Below, piece after piece: positions 1-8,016 of a stretch of DNA of 8,016 nt. The notes beneath the pieces were generated by a model. That model did no database searches and had not been told where the DNA came from. It saw only the letters and a list, made by a program, of their open reading frames with translations. Within the stretch, counting starts at the first letter, position 1. Every line of letters starts with the position of its first letter. This stretch comes from Acidobacteriota bacterium. Lineage in GTDB: Bacteria; Acidobacteriota; Vicinamibacteria; Vicinamibacterales; UBA8438. Both the position numbers and the translations under genes were made by a program. Location of the stretch: positions 1-8,016 of the forward strand of contig WTGR01000039.1 in the NCBI GenBank assembly GCA_011523485.1. Direction: 5' to 3'.

Positions 1-3000
1 TGCCGCCGTCCCAGCGCAGGCCGGCCTCGAGGCGGGGATTCAGGCTCGACGACTCGGACAACACCCAGTCGGTCTGCCCCTCGGCCAGCATCCGGCCCCG
101 CATCGCCGTGCCGGTCGCCGCCGCCATCTCGGCATGCTCCTCCGAGCGCAGCGTCGCGTGGAAGGCATCCACCTTCAGCGCCAGACCGTCCGTCAGCGCC
201 TGCCGCGCGCCGCCGGCGAACAGCCGCAGCCCGAGCGGGGTCTCTACCATCCCGACCGAGTCGGCCAGCGTCAGCGACCCCAGGCCGCCGCCGCCCATGC
301 CCCACATCGTCAGGCCGTTGCGCGGCGCCCAATGCGCATAGGGCTGCACGCTCGTCACGCGGCCGTCTCCCTCGCCGGGCAATGCGCCCTCGACCAGGGG
401 GTTCCGGACCGTGTAGCCGAGCAGACCCACCGTGTGGGACAGCGACACACCCAGCAGCGCCGAGTCGCCCAGCCGCGTGTCCACTCCCACGTGGCTCGAG
501 AACACGTCGCCCCGCGCTTCCCCCCCGGTCGGGGTCTGCAATTGGCTCCGCACCGTGCCCGCGCGGCCCCATACCTGCCAGCGCCCGGACTGGTTCGCCT
601 CTCCCACCGGCACCGAGAAGTTCGCGTTGTCGAGCCACCCCAGATCCGCGAACGGCTGGTCCGACGCCCGATGCAACGCCATGGCGCCCCGGCCGCCTCC
701 CGGCGAAGCGCCGCTGCCGCCGGCGCTCGACACTGCCGGATACGCCACGCCGGCGCCGGCCCCCGCGCTACCGTGGCCGGCCGGCGACGCCGCGCCCAAC
801 GTCGCCCGCGGCGTGTCGTCGCCGCCGGTCGCGACGAAGCGTTCCCCGATCGCCGCCACCGCCTCGGACGCCATCGAGCGCGCCAGCAGATACAGCGTGC
901 GGCTGGTCCCCGAACCCCGCGTCCGGACCAGCTCGTCATCGCGAATCGTCCCCGTCATCTGCAACGAGGTGGGGCTCGCTTGGTCCGTTCCGCCCGCCGC
1001 GGCCATGCGGATCGGGGCCTCGGCGGCCGACAAGCCGGATGCGCGCGACCCGACCGAGGCGACCGTCATCGAGAGCAGAAGCGTCTCCGCGCTCTCGACC
1101 ACGTCGTCGTCCAGCACCTCCACGGCAACCACCTTCTCGGTCTCGCCCGGCGCGAACACCAGCTTGCCGGTCGTCTCGACGTAGTCGGCGCCCGCCGTCG
1201 CCGTCCCGTCGGACGTCCAGTACTCGACGACCACCTCGTACGAGCTCGCGGACGAAGGCGACACCGTGAACGTCGCCAGACCGTCGGTTTCCCGCACGTC
1301 GGGCTCGGTGACCGTGACCGTGACAACGTCGTTGTCCACGATGGTTCCCGTCGCCGACGCCGGCGGTCCCGGCGCATCCGCCAACTGCACCGCGAGCGTA
1401 AACGTCTCGTTGTCCTCGACCTCGGCGTCGTCCGCGACCGGCACGCTGACCGTCTGCTCGGTCTCGTCGGCCGAGAACACCAGTTGCCCGGAGGTCGACG
1501 TGTAGTCGGCGCCCGCCGCGGCCGAACCGTCGGTGGTCGCATACCGCACGGTCACCGCCTGCCGGCCGGCCGCTTGCAGAGCCACCGTGAACACCATGTT
1601 CTCCCCTTCGGCGGCGCGGGCCGCACCCACGCTCAGCCTCGGCGTCGAATCGGTCAGCGTCAGCCGCGTCCCGTTCACCGTCAGCCCCGACGCGCCGCCC
1701 GCCACCCGGATCGTCTCGGAGGCTTCGACCTGCGCATCCGCCGCGGGCGTCAGCCTGAACGTCTCCGTGCCGCTCGTCTCGCCTCCCCGGATCCGGACAT
1801 CGAAGTCGGAGACCGCCGCGTAGTCGGTCCCGGAAGTCGCCGTGCCGCCGCCGACCGACACCCTGACGGTCGTGTCGGTGCTTAGCGTGCTGCTGCTGGA
1901 GAATGCCGCCGTGACCGTCACTCTCGTCGGCGCGTCACCCTCGCTCACGATCGACGGGCTCACCGACAGGTCCACCTCCGGCGTACCGTCGTCGTCGGTC
2001 AGCGTCAGCCATGTCCCGTTCACCGTCAGGTCCCCCGCGGCGCCGGCGACGTCGATGGTCCCGTTGCCTTCGACCGTCGTGTCCTGGATCGGCCGCAGCG
2101 TGAACATCCCGGTTCCGCTTGTCGCACCCTTCGCGATGGTGATGTCGAAGTTCGAGACCGCCGCGTAGTCCGTGCCCGGGGTCGCCGTGCCGCCGCCGAC
2201 AGAGACCGTCACCCTCCGGTCCTCGGTGAAAGTCCTGTTGCCGGACAGCGACGCCGTGACTGCCACTCTCGTCGCCGAAGCGCCTTCGCCCACGCTGGAC
2301 GGGCTCACCGACAGGTTCACCGCAGGCGCGCCGTTGTCGTCGGTCAGCGCGAGCCGTGTCCCGTTCACCGTCAGGTCTCCTGCGGCGCCGGCGACGTCGA
2401 TGGTCTCGTTGCCTTCGACCGTCGTGTCCTGGATCGGCCGCAGCGTGAACGTCCCCGTTCCGCTTGCCGCACCCTTCGCGATGGTGATGTCGAAGTTCGA
2501 GACCGCCGCGTAGTCCGTGCCCGAGGTCGCCGTGCCGCCGCCGACCGAGACCGTCACCGTCCTGTCCTCGGCGAAAGTCCTGTTGCTGGACAGCGACGCC
2601 GTGACCGTCACTCTCGTCGCCGAAGCGCCTTCGCCCACGATGGACGGGCTCACCGCCAGGTTCACCGCAGGCGCGTCGTCGTCGTCGACGATCGTCCCCG
2701 TCGCCGTGTCGCTCGCCGCTATGGTCTCCGAGGTCCCGGAGACGCGCAGGCTCACAGTGAAGGTCTCGTCCGCCTCGACATCGGTGTCCTCGGTCGTCGC
2801 CACCGCGAAGCTCTGCGTCTCGCCCCCGGTGCCCGCGAAGCTGAGCGCGGTCGCGGTCGCCGTATAGTCCGTGCCCTTCGCCGCCGTGCCGTCGGTGAAG
2901 CTCGGCGTCACCGACAGACCACCGGATACGTCCTCGTCCAGCGTGACGGTGAAGGTGATCGAGTCGCCCTCGTCGGCCTCCGCATCGGCGATCGTCAACG

Positions 3001-4891
3001 CTGGCGTGATGCCGCTACGTTGCTGGTCGTCGTCGTCATCGACGATGGTCCCCGCCGCCGTGTCGGTCGCCGTCACCGTCGTCGATGTCCCCGTTGCTGT
3101 CAAGCTGACGGTAAACGTCTCGTCGTTCTCGACATCGGTGTCCTCGGTCGTCGCGACCGTGAAGGTCTGCGTCTCGCCCGCGGTGCCCGCGAAGCTGATC
3201 CCCGCCGTGTTCTCCGTGTAGTCCGTGCCCTTCTCGGCCGTGCCGTCGGTGAAGCTCGGCGTCACCGTCAGACCGCCGGACACCGCCGCGTCCAGCGTCA
3301 CCGTGAACGTGATCGGGTCGCCCTCGTCGGCTTCGGCGTCCTCAATCGTCACCGACGGCGCGTCGTCGTTTTCGATGGTCCCCGTCGCCGTGTCGTTCGC
3401 CGTCACCGTCTCCGATGTCCCGGAAACGGTCAGGCTCACCGTGAACGTTTCGTCGCCTTCCACCGCCTGATCCTCGGTCGTCGCGACCGTGAACTGCTGC
3501 GTCTCGCCGGCGGTGCCCGCGAAGGTGAGCGCCGACGTGTTCTCGGTGTAGTCGGTGCCCTTCGTGGCCGTGCCGTCGGTGAAGCTCGGCGTCACCGTCA
3601 GTCCACCCGACACCGCCTCGTCCAGCGTCACGGTGAACGTGATCGGGTCGCCCTCGCCGGCCGAGGCGTCGGCAATCGTCACGGCCGGCGCGTCGTCGTC
3701 GCGGATCGTCCCCGTCGCCGTATCGGTAGCCGTTATGGTCTCCGACGTCCCGGAAACCCTCAGGCCCACCGTGAAGGTCTCGTCGCCCTCGACATCGGTG
3801 TCCGCGGTCGTGGCCACGGTGAACGTCTTCTCCTCCCCGGCCGTACCCGCAAAGCTGAGGCCCTCCGTGTACTCGGTGTAGTCCGTACCCTCCGTCGCCG
3901 TGCCGTCGGTGAAGCTCAGATCGACGGAGAACTGGCCGGAGACCGCCGCGTTCAGGGTTACCGTGAAGGTCATCGAGCCACCCTCGGTGGCCGAAGCGTC
4001 GTCGATGGAAAGGGCCGGCGCGTCGTCGTTGCGGATCGTTCCGGTCGCGGTGTCGGTCGCCGTCACCGTCGCTTTTGTCCCGGAGACGGCCAGGTTGACC
4101 GTGAACGTCTCTTCGTCTTCCACCGCCTCGTCCTCGGTCGTCGTCACCGTGAAGCTCTGCGTCTCACCGGCGGTGCCTGAGAAGCTGATCCCCGCCGTGT
4201 TCTCCGTGTAGTCCGTGCCGCTCGTCGCCGTCCCGTCGGTGAAGCTCGGCGTCACGGTGAAGCCGCCCTGTACCGCATTGTCCAGAGTCACGGTGAACGT
4301 AGCCCCGTCGCCCTCGCTGACCGATGCATCGGCGATCGTCAGGGTCGCCGAGTCGTCGTCGCGGATGTATCCCGTCGAATCATCAATCTGGAACCTGGCC
4401 TCCGTTTCGGTGACGCTCAGCTTGACGGTGAAGATCTCGGTATCCTCCGCCACGCTGTCCTCGGTGGTCGCCACCGTGAAGGTGTGCTTCTCGTTCGCGG
4501 TACCCTTGAAGGTGAGTGTCGCCGGGTTCGCGGTCGCGGTGTAGTCCGTGCCGTTCTTTGCCGTGCCGTATCCGCTATGCTGCGTGCTCCCGTCGGTGAT
4601 GACCGGCGTCACCTTGAACCCGCCCGGCACGGTTCCACCCGCGGAAATGAACACATCGAACGTCATCGTGCCGCCCTCGTCAACCCACTCATCGGTGATC
4701 AGCAGCCAGGAAGGGAGGCCTTGCGCGTTCGCCGGCTCGACGCCGAGGGCCGCGCCCACGGCGACCGCGGCGACGACCGCGGCCACCCGCCGCATCCAGC
4801 GCCGTCGATCGCGACCTCGCTGCCCCGCTCCCGCCCGAACGAGTGCATCGCGACGCGCCTGCTCAACCGTGGTGTGGACGTTCAGCAACAT
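1..4891 (-). CDS. Giant Calx-beta repeat autotransporter-like surface protein (C-terminus cut by window edge)
   Basis: The frame is open from an ATG at 4891 to position 1, giving 1630 codons and no stop; the 3' end lies outside the window. Residues 1-35 are Arg-rich, 36-51 are a hydrophobic Ala/Val core, and an ANA|Q site near 56 suggests signal peptidase I cleavage. About 57-740 hold six Calx-beta-like repeats of ~110 residues, 741-1082 three of ~115, and 1083-1318 two more canonical ones. Recurrent motifs are SFTDGTA, GTDYT, DETFTV and GTI-x-DDD; Asp runs close many units, as expected of calcium-binding Calx-beta folds. A helix (~1327-1352, LYLLARSMASEAVAAIGERF), a Gly/Ser-rich stretch (~1355-1402) and the start of an autotransporter-like barrel (~1403 on) follow. 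I saw no Cys. The role is probably an exported adhesin or surface-layer protein; whether the passenger is cleaved cannot be seen. The start at 4891 has a Shine-Dalgarno; ATG 4921 and ATG 4795 are in frame but lack one. Confidence 0.9.
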   Translation of the reverse strand, partial: MLLNVHTTVEQARRDALVRAGAGQRGRDRRRWMRRVAAVVAAVAVGAALGVEPANAQGLPSWLLITDEWVDEGGTMTFDVFISAGGTVPGGFKVTPVITDGSTQHSGYGTAKNGTDYTATANPATLTFKGTANEKHTFTVATTEDSVAEDTEIFTVKLSVTETEARFQIDDSTGYIRDDDSATLTIADASVSEGDGATFTVTLDNAVQGGFTVTPSFTDGTATSGTDYTENTAGISFSGTAGETQSFTVTTTEDEAVEDEETFTVNLAVSGTKATVTATDTATGTIRNDDAPALSIDDASATEGGSMTFTVTLNAAVSGQFSVDLSFTDGTATEGTDYTEYTEGLSFAGTAGEEKTFTVATTADTDVEGDETFTVGLRVSGTSETITATDTATGTIRDDDAPAVTIADASAGEGDPITFTVTLDEAVSGGLTVTPSFTDGTATKGTDYTENTSALTFAGTAGETQQFTVATTEDQAVEGDETFTVSLTVSGTSETVTANDTATGTIENDDAPSVTIEDAEADEGDPITFTVTLDAAVSGGLTVTPSFTDGTAEKGTDYTENTAGISFAGTAGETQTFTVATTEDTDVENDETFTVSLTATGTSTTVTATDTAAGTIVDDDDDQQRSGITPALTIADAEADEGDSITFTVTLDEDVSGGLSVTPSFTDGTAAKGTDYTATATALSFAGTGGETQSFAVATTEDTDVEADETFTVSLRVSGTSETIAASDTATGTIVDDDDAPAVNLAVSPSIVGEGASATRVTVTASLSSNRTFAEDRTVTVSVGGGTATSGTDYAAVSNFDITIAKGAASGTGTFTLRPIQDTTVEGNETIDVAGAAGDLTVNGTRLALTDDNGAPAVNLSVSPSSVGEGASATRVAVTASLSGNRTFTEDRRVTVSVGGGTATPGTDYAAVSNFDITIAKGATSGTGMFTLRPIQDTTVEGNGTIDVAGAAGDLTVNGTWLTLTDDDGTPEVDLSVSPSIVSEGDAPTRVTVTAAFSSSSTLSTDTTVRVSVGGGTATSGTDYAAVSDFDVRIRGGETSGTETFRLTPAADAQVEASETIRVAGGASGLTVNGTRLTLTDSTPRLSVGAARAAEGENMVFTVALQAAGRQAVTVRYATTDGSAAAGADYTSTSGQLVFSADETEQTVSVPVADDAEVEDNETFTLAVQLADAPGPPASATGTIVDNDVVTVTVTEPDVRETDGLATFTVSPSSASSYEVVVEYWTSDGTATAGADYVETTGKLVFAPGETEKVVAVEVLDDDVVESAETLLLSMTVASVGSRASGLSAAEAPIRMAAAGGTDQASPTSLQMTGTIRDDELVRTRGSGTSRTLYLLARSMASEAVAAIGERFVATGGDDTPRATLGAASPAGHGSAGAGAGVAYPAVSSAGGSGASPGGGRGAMALHRASDQPFADLGWLDNANFSVPVGEANQSGRWQVWGRAGTVRSQLQTPTGGEARGDVFSSHVGVDTRLGDSALLGVSLSHTVGLLGYTVRNPLVEGALPGEGDGRVTSVQPYAHWAPRNGLTMWGMGGGGLGSLTLADSVGMVETPLGLRLFAGGARQALTDGLALKVDAFHATLRSEEHAEMAAATGTAMRGRMLAEGQTDWVLSESSSLNPRLEAGLRWDGG
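938..1645 (-). repeat. Canonical Calx-beta repeats, class C (two units)
   Basis: Two units with the commonest bacterial Calx-beta signature lie next to the membrane end of the passenger. The first shows AAEGENMVFTVAL, VRYATTDGSAAAGADYT, GQLVFSADETEQTVSVPV and DNETFTLAV. The second shows VEYWTSDGTATAGADYVETT, LVFAPGETEKVVAVEVLDDD and ESAETLLLSM. The second carries an Ala/Ser-rich insertion of about 30 residues (~1280-1310) before its final GTIRDDE strand. They are diverged from each other at DNA level and so look older than class B. Confidence 0.8.
1646..2671 (-). repeat. Calx-beta-like repeat array, class B (three units, 345-bp period)
   Basis: Three units of about 115 residues start with VNLAVSPSIVGEGASATRV-like strands. 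They carry SVGGGTAT-x-GTDYAAVS and end in DLTVNGT-x-L-x-LTDD. Units one and two (about 2671-2327 and 2326-1982) are nearly identical in DNA over long runs: the plus-strand block starting at 2041 recurs at 2386, an exact 345-bp offset. Unit three (about 1981-1646) keeps the fold motifs but has drifted. The class differs from class A in its first strand and lacks the AGETQ motif. Confidence 0.82.
2672..4723 (-). repeat. Calx-beta-like repeat array, class A (six units)
   Basis: Six tandem units make up the N-terminal passenger. Each runs from a strand like ADASVSEGD, through FTVTL, SFTDGTA-x-x-GTDYT and AGETQ-x-FTVATTED, to DETFTVSL and a closing DDD. The DNA also repeats: the plus-strand string GCCGTGCCGTCGGTGAAGCT or a close variant starts at about 2883, 3237, 3567, 3897 and 4227. 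The period is 330 bp (110 codons), except for one 354-bp step caused by an eight-residue linker insertion. The first unit (4723-4352) is the most divergent and longest, and probably caps the array. Confidence 0.85.
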
Positions 4892-4896
4892 CGGCT

Positions 4897-4901
4897 TCCT
4901 C
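4897..4901 (-). promoter_or_regulatory. Shine-Dalgarno of the large Calx-beta gene
   Basis: On the minus strand GAGGA lies five bases before ATG 4891. This favours 4891 over the in-frame ATG at 4921 (no purine-rich stretch just upstream) and over ATG 4795, which would give a shorter, conventional signal peptide but follows GACGGCGCTGG. Confidence 0.6.
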
Positions 4902-5102
4902 AGGGACTCTCCACCGCGCATGCGTCGTGCCGGCCAATCCGGCCGCGCGCTGCGGCGACATGTCCAAGGGCAAGAACCGGGCCACCACGCGTCGATGTGC
5001 TGCAACTGGCGTGTTTTCAGATAGTTCCCTCCTGCCGAGGCAGCGTCGCGCAGCGGCCGTGACTGTCGCGGCCTGCAACGGTCGACGGGCGGCACGAGTG
5101 CG

Positions 5103-5132
5103 CCGGATCGCGTCAAGTGATTCCAGATCCGG
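5103..5132. repeat. 7-bp inverted repeat CCGGATC...GATCCGG
   Basis: CCGGATC at 5103-5109 is matched perfectly by GATCCGG at 5126-5132, with a 16-bp spacer. It lies about 210 bp upstream of the large gene's start codon. The arm and spacer size would suit a dyad operator for a dimeric regulator or an RNA hairpin. A chance match in GC-rich DNA is also possible. Confidence 0.35.
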
Positions 5133-5193
5133 AAGTTGCGCACCCCAACCGCACAGACTGTTGCGCTTTGCAGCGGGTGTCGCGATTTGCAGC

Positions 5194-5268
5194 GCCTCCT
5201 GCCTGCGCCAGGGCTCTGCCGCTCTCGCGTGGCCGAGGGAAGTGAAGCCACGCGGGTGGACAGGAGGC
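5194..5268. repeat. Nested pair of 8-bp inverted repeats after the regulator gene
   Basis: The outer arms are GCCTCCTG (5194-5201) and CAGGAGGC (5261-5268). The inner arms are CGCGTGGC (5226-5233) and GCCACGCG (5247-5254), enclosing a 13-base loop. Both pairings are perfect and nested, beginning about 33 bp beyond the regulator's stop codon. They could form a transcript-end structure, but no U-run follows on the minus strand, so this is not a standard intrinsic terminator. It could instead be an intercistronic RNA structure or a binding site. Confidence 0.4.
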
Positions 5269-5301
5269 AGGCCGCCGTTCGATCGGGCCGGGCCGGGGCG
5301 G

Positions 5302-6660
5302 TCAGGCCCGGGCGTCGCCGAGGCCGTGCTTCTTCAGCTTCCGGTGCAGGGTGGTTCGGTCGATGCCGAGAGCACTCGCGGCGCGGGTCAGGTTGTGGCC
5401 CGACTGCTCCACGGCGTCGGCAATCGCCTGTCGCTCCAGGTCGGCCAGCGTTCCCACGGTCGGGGGCACGGCCGGCGCTCCGAGCGTGGCGGCGGGCGGT
5501 CCGACTTCGGCGGGAAGCGTGGCCGCCTGGAGCACGTCGGACGTCTCCAGCACGAGGCTGCGGCAGATGACGTTCTCCAACTCGCGCACGTTGCCGGGCC
5601 ACTCGTAGCGCGCCAGCAGGGCGGTCGCGGCGGGCGAGATGCCGCGCACGGCGGCGCCGAGCCGGTCGGCGTGCTTCTTGCGGAAGTGTTCGGCCAGCAG
5701 CGGGATGTCCTCCTGGCGCTTCCGCAGCGGCGGGACGTCGACAGGAAACACCGCGAGCCGATAGTACAGGTCCTCCCGGAACGCGCCCTCGCGCATCGCG
5801 GCTTCCAGATCGCGGTGCGTCGACGCGACCACGCGGACGTCGATGGGGATGGTGGCGTTCCCGCCGACCCGGCGGATCTCGCGCTCCTGCAGCACCCGCA
5901 GCAGCTTGGCCTGCAGGGCGACGGGCATGTCGCCGATCTCGTCGAGCAGCAGCGTGCCGCCGTCGGCCTGCTCGAAGCACCCGATGCGCCTCGCCGTCGC
6001 GCCGGAGAACGCGCCCCGCTCGTGCCCGAACATCTCGGTCTCGATCAGCGTCTCGGGCACCGACGCGCAATTGACCGCGACGAACGGACCCTTCCTGCGC
6101 GGCCCGTTGAAGTGCAGGGCTCGGGCGACGAGCTCCTTGCCCGTGCCGCTCTCGCCCGTCACCAGCACGCTGACGTCGCTGTCGACGACGCGCCGCAGCA
6201 GCTCGCCCACCTTGCGCATCCCCGGACTCGACCCGATGATCCCGCTGAAGGCGTAGGTCGTCTCCAACTCGGACCGCAACCGGCCGACCTCGGCCTTCAT
6301 CCGCTCGATCTCGAGCTCGCGCGACACGTCCCGGTAGACGAGCAGATCGCCCATCCGCGCGCCGCTGCTGTCGGACACCGGCTGCGTGAACTGGTAGAAC
6401 AGCGCCGTTCCCGGCGCCCCGGTGCCGCGCGGGTGCGGCTCGACCACGCGCGAGCGCGCGGCCGGACCGACCGTCGCGATCCGATTCGGCACGCGGAACT
6501 CCGGCGAGCACTCCCGGAACCGCTCGGTCGCAACGCTCAGCGACAGCTCGCGCAGCTCGTCGGGGGTCAGATCGAACAGCGCCTCGTACCAGCGGTTGGC
6601 GAAGACCAGCCGTTCCGTCCGGTCGTACATCGCGATGGCGTCGCCGGTGGCGTCGAGCAC
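5302..6660 (-). CDS. PAS / sigma54-interacting AAA+ / Fis-HTH transcriptional activator (probably the 3' part of a split gene)
   Basis: From GTG 6660 this frame gives 452 residues. A PAS domain (~1-115, [11 protein letters not shown]...[10 protein letters not shown]) is followed by a short coiled linker and a sigma54 activator AAA+ domain (~138-370). That domain shows Walker A GESGTGKE (169-176), the sigma54-contact loop GAFSGA (216-221; usual form GAFTGA), Walker B GGTLLLDE (234-241), FREDLYYRL (294-302) and [11 protein letters not shown] (354-364). A Fis-type helix-turn-helix (~408-446, [20 protein letters not shown]) would bind an upstream enhancer. The protein should remodel RNA polymerase-sigma54 by ATP hydrolysis. 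The GTG start is doubtful: it sits just inside the PAS domain with no well-placed Shine-Dalgarno. The frame stays open upstream for 22 more codons, encoding a typical linker ([20 protein letters not shown]), to the TGA that ends the receiver gene. The true protein probably includes that receiver. Confidence 0.88.
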
Positions 6661-6729
6661 GGCCTCGAGGCGCCGGTGGGAGTCCGTCAGTTGCCGGCGC
6701 CCCTCGGCGAGGTCCCGTTCCAGGTTTCA
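6661..6729 (-). other. In-frame TGA and linker joining receiver and PAS-AAA+ reading frames
   Basis: The TGA at 6729-6727 that closes the receiver frame lies in exactly the same frame as the activator. Reading through gives [23 protein letters not shown]. From memory of related receiver families, the segment after the last receiver helix commonly reads like LTEKW-x-L, with Trp where the TGA falls, so a TGG-to-TGA change would explain it. No ATG, GTG or TTG occurs in frame between the TGA and GTG 6660; only a CTG at 6723. Explanations are a nonsense mutation, a sequencing or assembly error, readthrough or UGA-Trp recoding, or a genuine two-gene split. Confidence 0.7.
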
Positions 6730-7194
6730 CTTCTTCACCAGCGACAGGCTGATCTGCTGGACCTCCTCGCGGGCGAAGGGCTTGCGGATGTACAGGAGCT
6801 TGTGCAGCAGGTCCACGTCGCCGATGATCGCCGACAGCGGCTTGTCCGAGTACGCGGTCATGATGACGACCTCGAGGTTGCGGTCGACAGCCCGCATGCG
6901 GCGCACCGCCTCGACGCCGTCGATGCCCGGCGGCATCCGTACGTCGACGAAGGCGACGGCGATGGGCTCGTCCGCCTCGTGCGCCTGCTCGACGGCGGCG
7001 TAGCCTTCCTGGCCGCTGCGCGCGTGCCGCAGGTCGAACGGCGGGAACCGGACCCCGGACGAGCGGTTCGGCGGATCCATGAAGGCCGCCACCAGGTCGT
7101 CGGACGCCGCCGTCGTGCGGCGCGGCAGCAGCATCTCCCGGAAGTCGTCGTGGATCTGCTCCTGATCGTCCACGACGAGGACGCGTAGGTTCAC
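6727..7194 (-). CDS. Response-regulator receiver domain protein (probably the 5' part of a split regulator)
   Basis: The 155-residue product is a single CheY-like receiver. The acidic pair D9-D10 (LVVDDQEQIHDDFREML), phospho-acceptor D84 (AFVDVRMPPG), T113 (IMTAYSD) and K138 (IRKPF) are all present, so phosphorylation by a histidine kinase is plausible; no kinase gene lies in the window. Between the first helix and second strand is an extra stretch (~24-54, including FMDPPNRSSG), typical of a receiver subgroup usually fused to further domains. The start is GTG 7194 with GGAGG six bases upstream; MNLRVLVVDD fits a receiver N-terminus. The frame stops at a TGA directly after the last helix, and the PAS-AAA+ frame resumes without a shift. 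I infer this receiver belonged to the same polypeptide and would gate the AAA+ domain. As a free protein it would be a single-domain regulator. Confidence 0.88.
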   Translation of the reverse strand: MNLRVLVVDDQEQIHDDFREMLLPRRTTAASDDLVAAFMDPPNRSSGVRFPPFDLRHARSGQEGYAAVEQAHEADEPIAVAFVDVRMPPGIDGVEAVRRMRAVDRNLEVVIMTAYSDKPLSAIIGDVDLLHKLLYIRKPFAREEVQQISLSLVKK

Positions 7195-7200
7195 GGGGAG

Positions 7201-7205
7201 CCTCC
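7201..7205 (-). promoter_or_regulatory. Shine-Dalgarno of the receiver gene
   Basis: On the minus strand GGAGG precedes GTG 7194 by six bases. This is a strong, well-spaced site that fixes the unusual GTG start. Confidence 0.65.
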
Positions 7206-7207
7206 CG

Positions 7208-7225
7208 TGTTTTTCGTATATTTCA
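7208..7225 (-). promoter_or_regulatory. AT-rich patch, possible promoter -10 region of the regulator
   Basis: The minus strand reads TGAAATATACGAAAAACA just before the Shine-Dalgarno, the most AT-rich stretch in an otherwise very GC-rich window. TATACG could serve as a -10 box with a very short leader. No recognisable -35 element lies 16-18 bp upstream, so the call is tentative. Transcription could also read through from the barrel gene only 76 bp away. Confidence 0.25.
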
Positions 7226-7252
7226 GGTTCGTGTCTTCGGTCGCCACGCAGC

Positions 7253-7270
7253 GCCGGCCCCTGACCCGGC
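7253..7270 (-). terminator. Small hairpin directly after the barrel gene stop (weak terminator candidate)
   Basis: GCCGG (7253-7257) and CCGGC (7266-7270) can pair with an 8-base loop immediately after the TAG stop of the barrel gene. The stem is only five GC pairs and no U-run follows at once, so it may merely attenuate or protect the 3' end. Read-through into the regulator gene is quite possible. Confidence 0.2.
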
Positions 7271-8016
7271 CTACCAGCCGAGGGTGGCGCGGCCCATGAA
7301 CCCGTTGCTGGCTTCGCCCTGCATCGGGGTCTCCCGCCGCTGCGCCTCGGCGGCCAGTTCGAAGTTCACGTTCCCCCGGTCCAGCACCCCGAGCCCGTAG
7401 CCGACCCGGTAGTCCCGGCCGTAGGACGAGGTCGCCAGGCCGACGCGCGGGGTCCCCACGAAGCGGGCCCCCACCGGCAGCCCGTAGCCCAACTCCGCGT
7501 CGACACGGTCGCCGGACCCGTACATCTGCTGCGAGCCCATCCCGTAGGCCATCTGGTTGCCCCACAGCGCATCGGCCCCGCCCTGCGCCTGCCCGCCCCA
7601 CGACGGGGCCACCCGAGCCGTCAGCCCCAACGGGCTCGACGGCGTCGGGTCCCAACCGAACGACAGCGACATCCCGCGTTCCGCGAACCCTTCGGCCTGG
7701 TGCACCACGAGCGTCCGCACCCGCACGTCCAGCGACAGCCCCGTCACCGTGTCGGAGAAGGCGAGGCCGCCGCCCACGTCCATGCCGGCGCCCGTCTCGG
7801 CGTCGCCGCCGTCGCGCCGCAGACCCACCTCGACCGTCGGCGTCAGCGACAGCCGGCCCCCGAGGGTGAAGCCCCGCGAGCCCTCCAGCGCCGTGCGAAC
7901 CCGCGTCACCCCCGCCTGGGAGGCGTTCAGCCGGCCCGCCGCGCCTTCGAGCAGATCGCTGGCCGCGCCCACCCACAGCGCGTCGGCCTTGAACGCCAGC
8001 GCGAACCCGCCGGTGG
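7271..8016 (-). CDS. Outer-membrane autotransporter-like beta-barrel protein (C-terminal 248 residues; N-terminus outside window)
   Basis: The frame enters the window at the right edge, two bases into a codon, and ends at TAG 7273-7271. The visible 248 residues alternate short polar and hydrophobic strands with Gly-rich turns, for example FALAFKADALWV, LSLTPTVEVGLRRDGGDAETG, GLSLDVRVRTLVVH and GLTARVAPSWGG. The sequence ends in FMGRATLGW; a terminal aromatic residue with alternating hydrophobics is the usual BAM-recognition signal of barrel proteins. I recognise the fold as the barrel type found at the C-terminus of large repeat-bearing surface proteins. The passenger lies beyond the window, so its substrate or binding role is unknown. 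The end of the left-hand Calx-beta protein (NPRLEAGLRWDGG) aligns with TPTVEVGLRRDGG here, so the two barrels are paralogues. A GTG at 7972 is in frame but is internal, since homologous strands precede it. Confidence 0.85.
   Translation of the reverse strand, partial: TGGFALAFKADALWVGAASDLLEGAAGRLNASQAGVTRVRTALEGSRGFTLGGRLSLTPTVEVGLRRDGGDAETGAGMDVGGGLAFSDTVTGLSLDVRVRTLVVHQAEGFAERGMSLSFGWDPTPSSPLGLTARVAPSWGGQAQGGADALWGNQMAYGMGSQQMYGSGDRVDAELGYGLPVGARFVGTPRVGLATSSYGRDYRVGYGLGVLDRGNVNFELAAEAQRRETPMQGEASNGFMGRATLGW

Follow-up and report, generated by a model that had tools for sequence, protein, structure and literature searches.

Are two neighbouring open reading frames (ORFs) on an acidobacterial contig two genes, or a single gene interrupted by one stop codon? 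The question arises in a stretch of 8,016 nucleotides (here called the window; positions 1 to 8,016 of contig WTGR01000039.1, assembly GCA_011523485.1, Acidobacteriota bacterium, order Vicinamibacterales). On its minus strand, a receiver ORF of 155 codons (7194–6727, GTG start at 7194) closes at the TGA 6729–6727, and beyond this triplet the same frame remains free of stops for 474 codons (157–630), up to a TGA at 5304–5302. Pfam recognizes a receiver (REC) domain in the first half and a PAS domain, a sigma54-interaction AAA+ domain, its lid and a Fis-type helix-turn-helix (HTH) in the second. A first-pass annotation of the sequence had let the receiver end at TGA 6729–6727 and the activator continue in the identical frame, which is right in coordinates and in frame relation. 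The comparison with relatives supports the view, drawn from sequence, that receiver and effector form one ancestral frame, cut where a lone TGA has taken the place of a conserved Trp codon. A recent nonsense mutation in the strain has probably interrupted an NtrC-type REC-PAS-AAA+-HTH gene behind codon 155, so that the receiver would be made on its own and the effector scarcely or not at all.

The tryptophan codon in related genes

The open run as such is weak evidence. A length of 473 stop-free codons has a p of ~2e-4 under a simple base-composition model, but another frame across the same GC-rich stretch is also stop-free, and therefore the relatives and the Pfam domains have to decide. When genome contigs were scanned with the receiver as query, 80 loci were retained, the 11 nearest being L001–L011. 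The first five derive from metagenome-assembled genomes of Vicinamibacterales, Vicinamibacteria or Acidobacteria, and presumably from a sponge habitat. Both halves of the window gene match one protein of the L001 genome, with identities of 94.8% and 90.4%. Codon 156 is TGG in 11/11 nearest loci; past it, the frame continues beyond the AAA+ core in ten and reaches an in-frame stop after the HTH in eight, L003 being ended by its contig. An orthologue (E <1e-130) is present in 8/162 genomes of the order, and in none of the eight does a stop fall inside the matched part, although in G003 and G004 the matched part already ends at residues 550 and 570, respectively, of 630. At the family level, 8/28 genomes carry the orthologue.

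Protein homologues give the same picture. Among 120 listed effector homologues (of 7999 scored), 115 span the Trp column, without exception with Trp; the other five fall short of the column, among them the window's own 452-aa ORF. For the receiver (120 homologues listed of 483) the residues are Trp in 116, Val in one (P0011), Tyr in one and a gap in two. The column is covered by 75 of the 80 loci, with 65 Trp, three Ser, two Arg and one each of Tyr, Cys, Ala, His and gap, and with no stop. In an alignment of 45 sequences (L001 and 44 of the 120 listed proteins, selected for full length and wide spread) the window differs at only one of 131 invariant columns, namely Trp156. Asp9, Asp10, Asp84, Thr113 and Lys138 of the receiver, which we take to be the acidic pair, the phosphorylated Asp, the Thr and the Lys needed for receiver phosphorylation, are invariant across the 45 sequences and all present in the window. 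The first-pass annotation had placed the TGA at a receiver Trp position and explained it by one change from TGG to TGA, with the same codon in related genomes as the check, and both the codon and the residue counts bear it out. Homologues consistently divided into two genes by a stop at this position, named there as the contrary pattern, were sought among the 11 nearest loci, the 75 covering loci, the 120 listed receivers and the eight orthologues, and were not found.

Some relatives deserve a remark of their own. P0011, a receiver homologue from a 7.6 kb contig (58% identical), ends in KVEC instead of KWNVE, and its frame looks broken at nearly the same codon as the window TGA. Three effector homologues with 86–89% identity (P0136, P0154 and P0158, on contigs of 10.5 kb, 1.25 Mb and 13.6 kb) start inside the PAS region; their genes, too, may thus be broken on the receiver side. 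The frame of the G004 orthologue is broken between AAA+ and HTH (L098:7514-7525), with effector residues 1–414 and 409–474 in different frames, a second disruption of the regulator gene in the family. In G002, a second match to the last 49 residues of the regulator (90% identical) lies about 1.1 kb past the gene (G002:C120:14029-14175). The more distant loci among the 80 share the KW helix end, followed by varied C-terminal parts. The 42 bases around the TGA gave no match in viral contigs.

Readings of the in-frame TGA

For a nonsense allele, a sense codon one change away (TGG) and an intact frame are found in the relatives, the latter in eight of the 11 nearest. The age of the stop was approached by the changes accumulated behind it. 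At the DNA level, the regulator gene shares about 91% identity with those of L001, L002 and L089. After the stop, the pairwise ratio of nonsynonymous to synonymous substitution rates (dN/dS) is 0.26 between the window and L001 or L089 and 0.35 between the window and L002, against 0.20 to 0.29 among L001, L089 and L002. Changes private to one branch were counted in these four sequences, leaving out L003 and L004 (incomplete or frame-broken), the more distant L005 and codon 156; they amount to 13 nonsynonymous and 13 synonymous in the window compared to 73 and 87 summed over the other three (Fisher p 0.68). The nonsynonymous portion of the window (13/26) is lower than the neutral expectation of 73% (p 0.010), and a stricter codon-wise count (six nonsynonymous, seven synonymous) yields p values between 0.036 and 0.062, according to the assumed neutral rate. 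As no clear decay is visible after the stop, either the TGA arose recently or the effector continues to be produced and used.

Several observations weigh against a recent nonsense mutation with loss of the effector. With clear decay missing, the loss of function is itself presumptive, and conversely the linker and PAS region contains seven nonsynonymous and three synonymous changes in the window versus 20 and 28 summed over L001, L089 and L002, a hint of relaxed constraint resting on few changes. The window's 452-aa effector ORF belongs to a cluster of two member sequences, and the other one may record the same split. Moreover, frame breaks in the regulator gene are not rare among assemblies, as two of the 11 nearest loci are affected: L004 has a break between AAA+ and HTH and L009 a stop after the PAS and before the AAA+ domain, which may be a real break or an assembly join. 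Finally, an erroneous base call would yield the same picture as a nonsense mutation.

Such an error in base calling or assembly, or a contig that records a minority variant, with TGG and an intact gene in the strain itself, ranks next to the recent nonsense mutation; we consider it unlikely, but it deserves serious consideration. The effector frame without clear decay, the other 130 intact invariant columns and the breaks in the assemblies of L004 and L009 are in line with it. The counter-arguments are indirect: those two breaks need not be substitutions, and nonsense alleles in natural genomes are probably more frequent than substitution errors per gene at fair assembly depth. The recent nonsense mutation remains the most likely reading. 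The first-pass annotation had listed a fresh nonsense mutation, an assembly error, tolerated read-through and a split freeing the receiver side by side, with recoding as a further check; the first of these is now best supported and the second keeps a minor share, whereas genome-wide recoding is disfavoured and a selected split is unsupported.

Tolerated read-through, in which tRNA-Trp misreads UGA at a low rate so that the stop lowers the dose of full-length regulator and leaves free receiver in excess, would agree with the apparent constraint on the effector. It would also agree with PMC7918605 (Belinky et al. 2021), which reports in-frame stops across bacteria with dN/dS below 1 that are mostly short-lived. 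The window resembles those cases, themselves mostly young, in having an in-frame stop inside a conserved and constrained gene, and differs in that a single copy is seen. The translation apparatus of the relatives speaks against this option. PMC13092985 ties raised UGA reading to a tRNA-Trp with a 4-bp anticodon stem, A9C or G24A. The likeness to the window ends with the UGA at a Trp codon, as each relative yielded one tRNA-Trp(CCA) of the ordinary type (in the 7/8 that ARAGORN folded, the anticodon stem has 5 bp and A9 and G24 are kept; the eighth is cut by a contig end and agrees in the remaining part). In addition, prfB, the gene of release factor 2 (RF2), is present in 8/8 relatives, and the DNA after the TGA, inspected for a recoding hairpin, folds no better than its shuffles (z −0.53 and −0.88). 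Read-through therefore appears improbable. Its elaborated form, a leaky-stop rheostat in which tRNA-Trp restores a few percent of full regulator and abundant free receivers soak up phosphate, has a still smaller chance; if it were true, a one-base change would have made a two-component activator buffered and low in dose.

A true gene split, with receiver and effector as two coupled genes and the second re-initiated at CTG 6723 or GTG 6660, has a similarly small chance. The first-pass annotation had found no ATG, GTG or TTG for 66 bases after the TGA, which holds in all frames. The first in-frame start is GTG 6660 (6658–6660, minus strand), 66 bases on, followed by ATG 6630; it opens the 452-aa effector ORF of the protein database (P0121). 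A GAGG lies only two bases ahead of it, badly placed, and a start there omits the linker and shortens the PAS_8 match by about five residues, as anticipated by the remark that this GTG lacks a good Shine-Dalgarno sequence and clips the PAS edge. The nearest non-standard candidate, CTG 6723 (6721–6723), has an AAGAAG six bases upstream, which may assist initiation but consists merely of two Lys codons present in relatives too. Stand-alone receivers of the same subfamily do exist: 26/120 listed receiver homologues end less than 25 residues past the Trp column, a few of them (e.g. P0008) resembling broken frames or contig ends. But these short receivers all extend 4 to 20 residues beyond the Trp column, and a stop at the codon is absent from the 11 nearest loci, the 75 of 80 loci covering it and the eight orthologues of the order. 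The single-domain receivers P0019, P0045, P0080 and P0090 (53–56% identical to the window receiver), for example, equally lack an effector but keep Trp-Asn-x-Glu and a short tail past the window's stop. In other proteins the receiver is fused directly to an HTH (P0032, P0049, P0051, P0056 and P0110). No short or HTH-fused form stops on the Trp itself, P0011 coming nearest. Such a REC-HTH protein without AAA+, with the ends and length of P0051, is encoded in L094 (7144-9898) after a kinase end and directly before a full REC-PAS-AAA+-HTH gene.

Reassignment of TGA to Trp throughout the genome would fit the location of this TGA at a Trp codon but can practically be dismissed, because TGA still terminates the regulator gene, the one gene examined, in the window and in six relatives (L001, L002, L005, L092, L093 and L094), and because the relatives, the genomes to which these counts refer, possess prfB, an ordinary tRNA-Trp(CCA) with a 5-bp stem and, in 7/8 cases, a tRNA-Sec reading UGA. 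This tRNA-Sec (anticodon TCA, L099–L105) implies that UGA likely has a second meaning and that selenoproteins are likely made in this group; selenocysteine insertion at the window TGA is nevertheless just as remote, since the close homologues have Trp and not Cys (115/115, with a single Cys among the 75 loci covering the column) and the downstream DNA resembles that of TGG-bearing relatives and is devoid of a notable hairpin.

Gene layout and comparison with known regulators

All features of the interrupted gene are on the minus strand. A Shine-Dalgarno-like GGGAGG (7206–7201), of which the part GGAGGCTCCCCGTG is common to L001, lies six bases ahead of the receiver GTG. In the receiver ORF (7194–6727), the Pfam match to Response_reg is limited to residues 60–147 (E 7.4e-11), and by eye an insertion of about 28 residues is located between helix 1 and strand 2. 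The TGA is followed by linker codons 157–178 (6726–6661) and by the PAS domain (6675–6319), matched by PAS_8 at residues 18–70 and by PAS_4 at residues 24–136 of the 474-aa effector. The sigma54-interaction AAA+ domain (6240–5740; Sigma54_activat, PF00158, E 2.2e-70, and its motifs), the lid (5724–5500; AAA_lid_14, E 1.3e-25) and the Fis-type HTH (5451–5326; HTH_8, PF02954, E 5.5e-13) complete the effector in front of the terminal TGA (5304–5302).

The AAA+ domain, lid and HTH are shared with NtrC-type regulators such as NtrC, ZraR, FleQ, NtrC1 and LuxO. The best solved matches of the intact L001 orthologue are ZraR (1ojl) and FleQ (8p53), NtrC-family entries and LuxO scoring lower. In contrast to these regulators, the window adds a PAS domain between receiver and AAA+ and the receiver insertion described above, and distributes the domains over two ORFs instead of one polypeptide. 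A possible further deviation concerns the sigma54-contact loop, whose motif in NtrC-type activators is GAFTGA; GAFSGA is found in the window and in L001–L005, GAFTGA in L006, P0160 and P0169. Literature searches on sigma54 activators, orphan receivers, gene fission and sponge symbionts returned no such case among the matches listed, which does not prove that none has been published.

The regulator is flanked upstream by an ORF without Pfam match (barrel-like by eye) and downstream by a Calx-beta repeat protein. DNA homology to L001, L089 and L002 ends 11, 3 and 1 bases, respectively, upstream of the regulator start, on the side of window positions 7195–8014. Over positions 2–6730, another minus-strand frame, beginning at GTG 6730, runs for 2243 aa without a stop, across the effector and on into the Calx-beta gene; over the effector it is likely a high-GC artefact. 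A scan of the window for sigma54 promoters gave one match with two mismatches, the chance expectation being 1.03. In G004, a PAS and HATPase protein (L098:9279-11450) shares four bases with the regulator ORF in its longest form and is likely the cognate kinase; no kinase adjoins the regulator in the window.

Proposed effect of the stop and its meaning

In the predicted structure of the L001 orthologue, a model of modest quality (mean predicted local distance difference test score, pLDDT, 66; predicted template modelling score 0.36), receiver and PAS appear to be joined by one helix of residues 142–182 (pLDDT 50–73), which includes Trp156 and, in its later part, the linker. Translation would mostly terminate at the TGA and release a 155-aa receiver. 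This free receiver would keep the residues presumably needed for phosphorylation (the two acidic Asp, the phosphorylated Asp, Thr and Lys), yet only 14 of the 41 predicted signalling-helix residues, i.e. the first third. Misreading by the near-cognate tRNA-Trp or weak re-initiation at CTG 6723 or GTG 6660 might supply a little effector at most, and effector begun at GTG 6660 would be without receiver control. Such a free effector may be active or dead; both kinds of receiver control are known among NtrC-type proteins. Taken together, the allele is likely a knock-down of the regulator, too recent for decay.

A premature stop is in itself ordinary, and its interest lies in two points. For annotation it is a warning that predicted ORFs of 155 aa and 452 aa correspond to one protein in relatives. 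For the biology of the family, the allele, if real, would constitute a natural test of a phosphorylation-controlled sigma54 activator severed at its hinge helix, with the Trp as the sole loss among 131 invariant columns.
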